From an uncultured Solirubrobacteraceae bacterium (GTDB lineage Bacteria; Actinomycetota; Thermoleophilia; Solirubrobacterales; Solirubrobacteraceae), in contig CADCVR010000081.1 of assembly GCA_902806205.1 (NCBI GenBank), positions 1-51,657 of the forward strand: DNA of 51,657 nt. The letters are read 5' to 3'. Positions 10,797 through 12,246 of the stretch are shown here, piece after piece. A model generated the notes under the pieces. The model was not told where the DNA came from, made no database searches, and saw nothing but the letters and a program-made list of their open reading frames with translations. The translations under genes were made by a program, and so were the position numbers. How positions within the stretch are numbered: position 1 is the first letter of the stretch; every line of letters starts with the position of its first letter.

Positions 10797-12206
10797 TCAG
10801 GAGCCCGGTCGGCCTGGGTCGGGCGGGGCGGCGCCGGCGGCCGGCTCGCTCTCGGTCTCGGCACGCAGCGCGCGGCGGACCTCTTCGCCCAGCCGCTCAG
10901 ACGTCACGCCGTAGTCCAGCAACGCGTTCACGGCGGCCAGCCCGAGCAGGATGTGCTGGGGGCCGATCTTGAACGAACCGAGCGACGCGTTCATCTTCGC
11001 CACCTCGAAGACCTTCTTGGACTCCGCCGTCAGGGGGATCTCGTCGCCGGTCGCCTCGATGTGCGCGCCTTCAGCGCGCGGCACCCGCGAGCGGGCGAGC
11101 TCCATCGTGATGCCGAGCGCTTCGAGCACCCGGCCCGTCTGGTCGTCCGACGGGTCGCGCAGCAGGGCGACCAGGATGTGCTCCGGCCGGACCTGATCGT
11201 GGCCGTGCTCCCGCGCCTGGTCCCGCGCCCACGTCACCACCGGCTCGACGAACTTCTCGTTCATCCGCGGGTACAGCGACGCGATCAGCTCGGGCGTGGC
11301 CGAGCGCCACTCGCCGTGCGCCGCCTCGCCGCCGCTGTGGCCGTCGCCCGGCTGGAGCGACGGAAGCTTGCCGGAGTCGATGCTGGACTGGTCCATCACT
11401 TCGGGGGCGACGAAGACGGGGGCGCCGAGCCGCGCCGCGAGGTTCAGCGCGTCGCTGGGCCGCGCGTCGACCTCCTGAGATCCGTCGCCGGCCGCGATGA
11501 CCACCGTCGCCAAGAACGTGTGCTCCCGCAGGCTCTCGATCACGACGCGCTCCACGCGGACGCCGCCGGCCTGCAGAAGCTTCGCGGTCAGGTCGGGGCC
11601 CAGCGGCCGAGGGTGCTCGTGCCCACTGCGCGCGAAGACGAGCGCGTCGCCCTCGGGCGCGCCGATCCAGATCGGCAGGACGCGCTCGCCCCCGTGCTCC
11701 TTGAGCAACACCACCCGGATGCCCTCGCGCGCGGTCGGCGGTGCCGGCGCGTCGGCCTCGTCGACGGGCACGCGCATGAACACGTCCTGCACGTCGATCT
11801 CGATCATCGTCATCGCCTCCACGGCATCGATGTAATCGTCCACCGGCGGCTCGGCCGAGCGCTGCAGCGCCGCGAGGATCTGCTGCAAGCGCTCGCGCAG
11901 CCGGTGCTGGTGCTCGAGCTCGCGCTCGACCTGCGCGAGATGGCGCCGGACGGTCTCCAGCAGGCCGGCGCCGCCGTCGTCGAGCAGCGACGCGATCTCG
12001 TCCAGGCGCAGGCCCAGGCGGCGCAACGCGAGGATCCGGTACAGCCGCCGCACATCCGTCGCCTCGTACACGCGGTGCCCGCCGGACGTCCGCTGCGACG
12101 GCACGAGCAGCCCGACGTCGTCGTAGTGGTGCAGCGCCCGCACCGTCAGCCCGGTGGCCCCGGCGAGCTCACCGACCTTCCAGCGCTTGTCGTCCTCTGC
12201 CGGCAT
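10797..12206 (-). CDS. MerR regulator + bifunctional nuclease (DUF151) + ClpN triple fusion
   Basis: 469 aa with three domains. (1) MerR winged helix at about 9-78 (KVGELAGATGLTVRALHHYDDVGLL) plus a coiled-coil linker to 130. (2) Bifunctional-nuclease/DUF151 domain at about 132-277: LPIWIG, RPLGPDLTAKLLQ and the signature ARPSDALNLAARLGAPVFV. (3) ClpA/B/C N-terminal repeats at about 310-455: VRPEHILVALLRDP and IGPQHILLGL. In mycobacteria MerR and DUF151 proteins are separate neighbours (Rv1828-Rv1829-Rv1830); here they are one chain with a Clp adaptor-like domain. The ATG at 12206 is chosen because the upstream GTG (12230) lies inside the predicted promoter. Confidence 0.88.
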   Translation of the reverse strand: MPAEDDKRWKVGELAGATGLTVRALHHYDDVGLLVPSQRTSGGHRVYEATDVRRLYRILALRRLGLRLDEIASLLDDGGAGLLETVRRHLAQVERELEHQHRLRERLQQILAALQRSAEPPVDDYIDAVEAMTMIEIDVQDVFMRVPVDEADAPAPPTAREGIRVVLLKEHGGERVLPIWIGAPEGDALVFARSGHEHPRPLGPDLTAKLLQAGGVRVERVVIESLREHTFLATVVIAAGDGSQEVDARPSDALNLAARLGAPVFVAPEVMDQSSIDSGKLPSLQPGDGHSGGEAAHGEWRSATPELIASLYPRMNEKFVEPVVTWARDQAREHGHDQVRPEHILVALLRDPSDDQTGRVLEALGITMELARSRVPRAEGAHIEATGDEIPLTAESKKVFEVAKMNASLGSFKIGPQHILLGLAAVNALLDYGVTSERLGEEVRRALRAETESEPAAGAAPPDPGRPGS

Positions 12207-12215
12207 CCGAGGCGG

Positions 12216-12246
12216 ACCGTACGCCCTCACGCAACGTCAGCTTCAA
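12216..12246 (-). promoter_or_regulatory. MerR-type promoter with operator in a 19-base spacer
   Basis: Read on the minus strand: TTGAAG (-35, 12246-12241), a 19-base spacer, then TACGGT (-10, 12221-12216), 9 bases before the ATG at 12206. The spacer contains CTGACGTTGCGTGAG (12240-12226), a dyad of form CTnACG-N3-CGTnAG. Overlong spacers carrying the dyad are the hallmark of promoters controlled by MerR-family activators, so autoregulation is likely. The transcript would be nearly leaderless. Confidence 0.6.

Follow-up and report, generated by a model that had tools for sequence, protein, structure and literature searches.

The TipA class of MerR regulators includes TipAL/TipAS, SkgA, AlbA and Mta. 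TipA proteins have been described as minimal autoregulated drug-resistance systems in which sensor, activator and drug sink are encoded by one gene (PMC7762955). A second one-gene arrangement is found in mycobacterial ClpC2, a copy of the ClpC N-domain that represses its own promoter, releases it when cyclomarin A binds and soaks up the drug; here the ClpN part itself binds DNA and is joined to a four-helix dimer domain (PMC10030653). The ClpC2 operator is CGTCAAC-n5-GTTGACG.

BFN (DUF151) proteins are widespread and their function in bacteria is poorly understood. TM0160 and the plant BBD/UVR-DUF151 proteins contain a complete BFN domain with the family motifs, are stand-alone or linked to a UVR domain, and have no DNA-binding domain fused to them; the plant members associate with CLPC1.

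The window, a stretch of 51,657 nucleotides from an uncultured Solirubrobacteraceae bacterium (genome assembly of 3.38 Mb in 108 contigs, 97% complete), contains a gene at 10797–12206 on the minus strand (stop codon included) that joins elements of all three systems. It encodes a protein of 469 amino acids, from an ATG at 12206 to a stop at 10797 with no internal stop codon, consisting of a MerR DNA-binding region, a BFN domain and a double ClpN region. As the initial annotation proposed, the three domains lie in one chain, each above its Pfam cut-off.

Architecture of the fusion protein

The N-terminal region (residues 9–136; 11799–12182, minus strand) comprises a MerR winged helix–turn–helix and a coiled-coil region of the TipA class. 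The winged-helix families PF13411 and PF00376 match with E-values of 1.7e-16 and 1e-12, MerR_1 covering residues 10–76 (1.7e-16), and the MerR-DNA-bind family follows at residues 52–109 (1.6e-6), all above cut-off. The closest solved chain for this region is the N-domain of TipA (pdb 2vz4, E 2e-22). Two helices of the coiled-coil region, residues 80–96 and 101–115, are predicted with low confidence in an AlphaFold model (pLDDT 50) built from a two-sequence alignment. The TipA class also makes a second, shorter isoform that starts internally. Towards the end of this region GGAGG precedes the ATG codons at residues 132/134, both here and in the orthologue described below, but the same DNA encodes a conserved EAMTMIE peptide.

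The BFN domain occupies residues 164–277 (11376–11717, minus strand). It is recognized by PF02577 over residues 166–277 with an E-value of 1.1e-32 and 112.6 bits against a cut-off of 27, and TM0160 is the closest solved chain (3e-22). Both family motifs, RPSDAxxLA and PIWIG, are intact.

The C-terminal region (residues 318–450; 10857–11255, minus strand) resembles the N-domain of ClpC and has no ATPase. By Pfam alone the first Clp_N repeat passes (residues 327–375, 5.3e-11) and the second is too diverged. The N-domain of M. tuberculosis ClpC1, the closest solved chain for this region (2.5e-13), aligns over both repeats with an E-value of 4e-14, which bears out the earlier suggestion of two repeats, the second having diverged. 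The region is 44% identical to the N-domain of the genome's own ClpC. At the positions of the three ClpC1 residues named as critical for cyclomarin (F2, F80 and E89) the fusion protein has N, L and E, and the orthologue W, Y and E. A ClpC2-type cyclomarin site was therefore rejected, as two of the three residues are lost, and with E89 alone retained any putative ligand would not simply resemble cyclomarin. The normal ClpC of the source genome is encoded on contig C42 and a canonical BFN gene, separate from the fusion, on contig C75. Additional stand-alone ClpN proteins without ATPase domains are encoded at C43:27011–27379 (+) and C108:7869–8024 (+).

The fusion protein resembles the TipA class in its MerR part, in its MerR-type promoter, in an effector placed C-terminal to the same helix and in single-gene autoregulation, which for the fusion is inferred. 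However, the TipAS domain (PF07739) is absent by Pfam and the BFN-ClpN module stands in its place; hence it is not filed as a TipA protein. Similarly, it shares with ClpC2 a non-ATPase C-terminus related to the ClpC N-domain, a palindrome near a leaderless start and its own promoter as the apparent sole target, but it has MerR and BFN where ClpC2 has its four-helix dimer domain, keeps one of three cyclomarin residues and is preceded by a different dyad.

A predicted operator ahead of the gene

A predicted promoter/operator lies directly upstream of the gene at 12216–12246 (minus strand). It consists of a −35 hexamer TTGAAG (12241–12246) and a −10 hexamer TACGGT (12216–12221) separated by 19 bp, a spacing typical of MerR-controlled promoters, in which spacers of 19–20 bp are found (PMC9909328). 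The complete element, TTGAAG-CTGACGTTGCGTGAGGGCG-TACGGT (12246–12216, minus strand), contains within its spacer the dyad CTGACG-TTG-CGTGAG (12226–12240, minus strand). The −10 hexamer ends 9 nt before the ATG at 12206, which supports this codon as the start; a longer alternative frame from a GTG at 12230 would begin within the operator itself. With so short an interval the mRNA is probably leaderless or nearly so. A role as a DNA-binding regulator, initially proposed from the MerR domain, thus gains support from the predicted operator.

The same element is present in the orthologue, 7 nt ahead of its GTG. Of 19 loci of this MerR subfamily, 15 carry a loose form of it, in 13 of them 6–15 nt before a recognized MerR start, and 50 shuffles yielded no match. 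Besides the fusion gene, the orthologue and a further 13 related loci are preceded by the element. Across the subfamily (L058, L059, L062, L063, L066, L068 and L075–L079) a shared operator, TTGnnnCTsACGnnnCGTsAG with a 19-bp spacer, is usually followed by the start codon 6–15 nt after the −10, while the effectors (TipAS, VOC) are interchangeable.

Allowing up to three mismatches, the source genome contains one site, that before the fusion gene. The orthologue's genome contains one site without mismatch; its two additional weak matches do not exceed the control, which gave four. The simplest reading of a single site is that the main or only target is the gene itself, giving self-control as in TipA and ClpC2; judged from these genome scans, the protein most likely controls only its own gene.

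Relatives and origin of the parts

A full-length orthologue is encoded by genome G588, from another family of the same order. A single frame there holds the whole architecture, with Pfam matches for all three domains, and the protein is 54% identical over 469 amino acids, so that the fusion is not absent from all relatives. Identity falls from 76% in the MerR part and 67% in the BFN domain to 39% in the ClpN region, and this faster divergence fits a ligand-facing domain. The two genes have no neighbours in common; on this ground the MlaF-like ATPase and MMPL genes of the window were rejected as partners in a conserved operon. In G588 a degenerate ClpN gene lies approximately 2 kb away from the fusion (L084:4575–5349, minus strand).

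A further relative (G691), from the same family and another genus, encodes an intact MerR part and the start of a BFN domain, followed by an in-frame stop, another BFN piece in a different frame and, beyond this, nothing recognizable; it is decayed or mis-assembled. The intact fusion occurs in at least 2 of 232 genomes of the order. No other full-length match came up among 199 genomes sampled from the class or 396 sampled from the phylum, and when 399 genomes of the class were searched with a different BFN query, G588 alone was returned; as a limited number of candidates was scored in each genome, these counts are lower bounds. A DNA scan of genome contigs found no additional MerR-BFN-ClpN gene. 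The fusion is real and rare and, given this rarity and one decayed relative, dispensable.

By sequence, the fused MerR part belongs to the TipA class. Its relatives (residues 5–136, roughly 48–57% identity) end in TipAS (L058, L075) or in a glyoxalase/VOC domain (L062), and the similarity ceases after the helix ..EAMTMIE.., where the BFN domain of the fusion begins. This common end point indicates that the effector was swapped at the domain boundary. The MerR-glyoxalase/VOC regulators accordingly share the MerR subfamily and operator with the fusion but differ in the effector domain.

In a BFN tree with several long branches and rough support, the fused BFN groups with that of G588, with BFN domains fused to ECF sigma factors (see below) and with a stand-alone variant from G121; the canonical BFN of the class, including that of the source genome itself, falls outside this group. 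The G121 variant (L006:1597–2190, minus strand), from the same genus as G588, has a post-BFN tail resembling that of the fused BFN, and is possibly a source or a loss product of the fusion.

The initial annotation had appealed to the adjacency of MerR and DUF151 genes in the mycobacterial Rv1828–Rv1830 region. This argument does not explain the fusion: MerR genes adjoining BFN were detected solely in L065 and L067, which come from another class, and there they belong to a different MerR subfamily, and none was detected beside the BFN genes sampled in the fusion's own class. Joining of an Rv1828/Rv1829-type neighbour pair was therefore rejected as the origin.

Possible function of the BFN-ClpN module

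Both domains recur on transcription regulators. An ECF sigma factor with a C-terminal BFN is encoded in two genomes of the same class (L087 in G162 and L086 in G191), with the frame broken inside the BFN domain in these assemblies, and a DNA scan of genome contigs found it intact in an Anaerolineae MAG (L034:4176–5423); a second example in the Chloroflexota was not found in 251 genomes. Like the fusion these proteins have an N-terminal transcription factor and a C-terminal BFN, which in the same-class examples groups with the fused BFN, but they carry a sigma factor in place of MerR and have no ClpN. Two adjacent BFN genes, the second diverged, are present in a Nitrospira MAG (L035:4860–5895). 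The source genome has two ClpN pairs, each joined to an anti-sigma helix that resembles RsiG (PF22802), at C7:36029–36718 (+) (L054) and C43:7737–8483 (−) (L052), and a similar fusion is present in G175 (L110). Both ClpN pairs are 87% identical to the ClpC N-domain. The c-di-GMP motif of RsiG is E(X)3S(X)2R(X)3Q(X)3D (PMC8325347), and the fused helix keeps it except that Q is replaced by H or R. Single-motif RsiG genes are common in the order, which fits a placement in the Thermoleophilia. Tentatively, BFN and ClpN could constitute a sensor module by which these actinobacteria link transcription directly to the state of Clp or to attacks upon it; a MerR activator, ECF sigma factors (BFN) and a c-di-GMP anti-sigma domain (ClpN) would each have acquired these domains separately.

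The reading favoured on balance is that of a one-gene, self-regulating switch of the TipA class in which a BFN-ClpN effector module takes the place of TipAS. The sequence itself shows the architecture, its conservation, the operator and a single strong site in the genome; we infer that the site is bound, that a ligand switches the binding, that the signal enters via the ClpN part and that the protein acts as a sink. The MerR part, presumably as a dimer, would bind the spacer dyad of its own promoter. The signal, which might be proteotoxic stress or else a protein or other molecule with affinity for the ClpC N-domain, would engage the ClpN part; once the effector module is engaged, the MerR part would distort the DNA and so switch on transcription of the gene. 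The accumulating protein could then form a sink that protects ClpC, in the way that TipAS soaks up thiopeptides and ClpC2 cyclomarin, and the BFN part would serve as a sensing or dimer-forming module rather than as a nuclease output. Taken together, the protein is most likely an autoregulated sensor of something able to engage the N-domain of ClpC, and perhaps a sink for it as well.

The main rival of this ligand-sensor reading is a sensor of Clp load, in which the ClpN part, instead of sensing a small molecule, places the regulator under Clp control by competing for, or docking, adaptors or substrates, so that protein amount or DNA binding reports the load. The N-domain of ClpC is a docking site for adaptors and substrates (PMC10030653), CLPC1 traps plant UVR-DUF151 proteins, an independent tie of the BFN family to ClpC (PMC8889267), and the ClpN-RsiG fusions of the source genome would also be in keeping with such a role. 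It is nevertheless considered unlikely, as the fusion protein yielded neither a known degron nor a known adaptor motif and its ClpN surface has diverged from that of the host ClpC.

Alternatively, binding of ligand or DNA could bring a DNase or RNase to the gene's own promoter or transcript, the protein then working by cleavage. The full score of the BFN domain and its intact motifs would fit an enzyme as well as a regulator, and plant BBD1/BBD2 are reported as nucleases (PMC7249048). A related BFN is joined to ECF sigma factors, a setting in which regulation is the more natural role, and output by cleavage is considered quite improbable.

Efflux genes are often targets of MerR drug regulators, and an MMPL transporter gene (7979–about 10716) follows in the same orientation no more than about 0.1 kb downstream, so that read-through from the fusion's promoter could make the protein an efflux regulator. 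The chance of this appears slim: the orthologue has no adjoining MMPL gene, and the genome scan with up to three mismatches found no second operator before the MMPL gene. Neutral domain shuffling, a chance fusion whose combination has no special function, would be in line with the rare and patchy distribution and with the decay in G691, but it is given very little probability, since three intact domains are conserved at 54% across families together with the operator and the start spacing. Finally, that an assembly or frameshift error has joined separate genes, as a fragmented source assembly of 108 contigs might suggest, is excluded by the intact copy at a different location in another genome, and codon-position GC is coding-like over the whole frame.

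The initial interpretation is thus partly supported. Its suggestions that the protein acts on RNA or DNA, and that it is handed to Clp or recruits it, describe what the protein may do. Its statement that no function has been described holds for the exact architecture, no paper on MerR-BFN-ClpN, ECF-BFN or ClpN-RsiG fusions having been found in the open-access literature searched, but TipA and ClpC2 provide two close functional models. What is new is a TipA-class MerR protein with a new effector, BFN-ClpN, its own operator and an effector swap at the domain boundary. The occurrence of one operator with interchangeable effectors makes this MerR subfamily a ready sensor scaffold, and with BFN fused to a regulator that has a defined operator, a promoter-reporter gives a direct functional handle on the switching signal. 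If the sensor-module reading is true, BFN gains a regulatory role not described in the literature found. The fusion protein may serve as a reporter of, or a sponge for, molecules directed against the ClpC machine, which would extend to a new chassis the idea, drawn from ClpC2, that copies of the ClpC N-domain act as sensors or decoys for ClpC-directed toxins.
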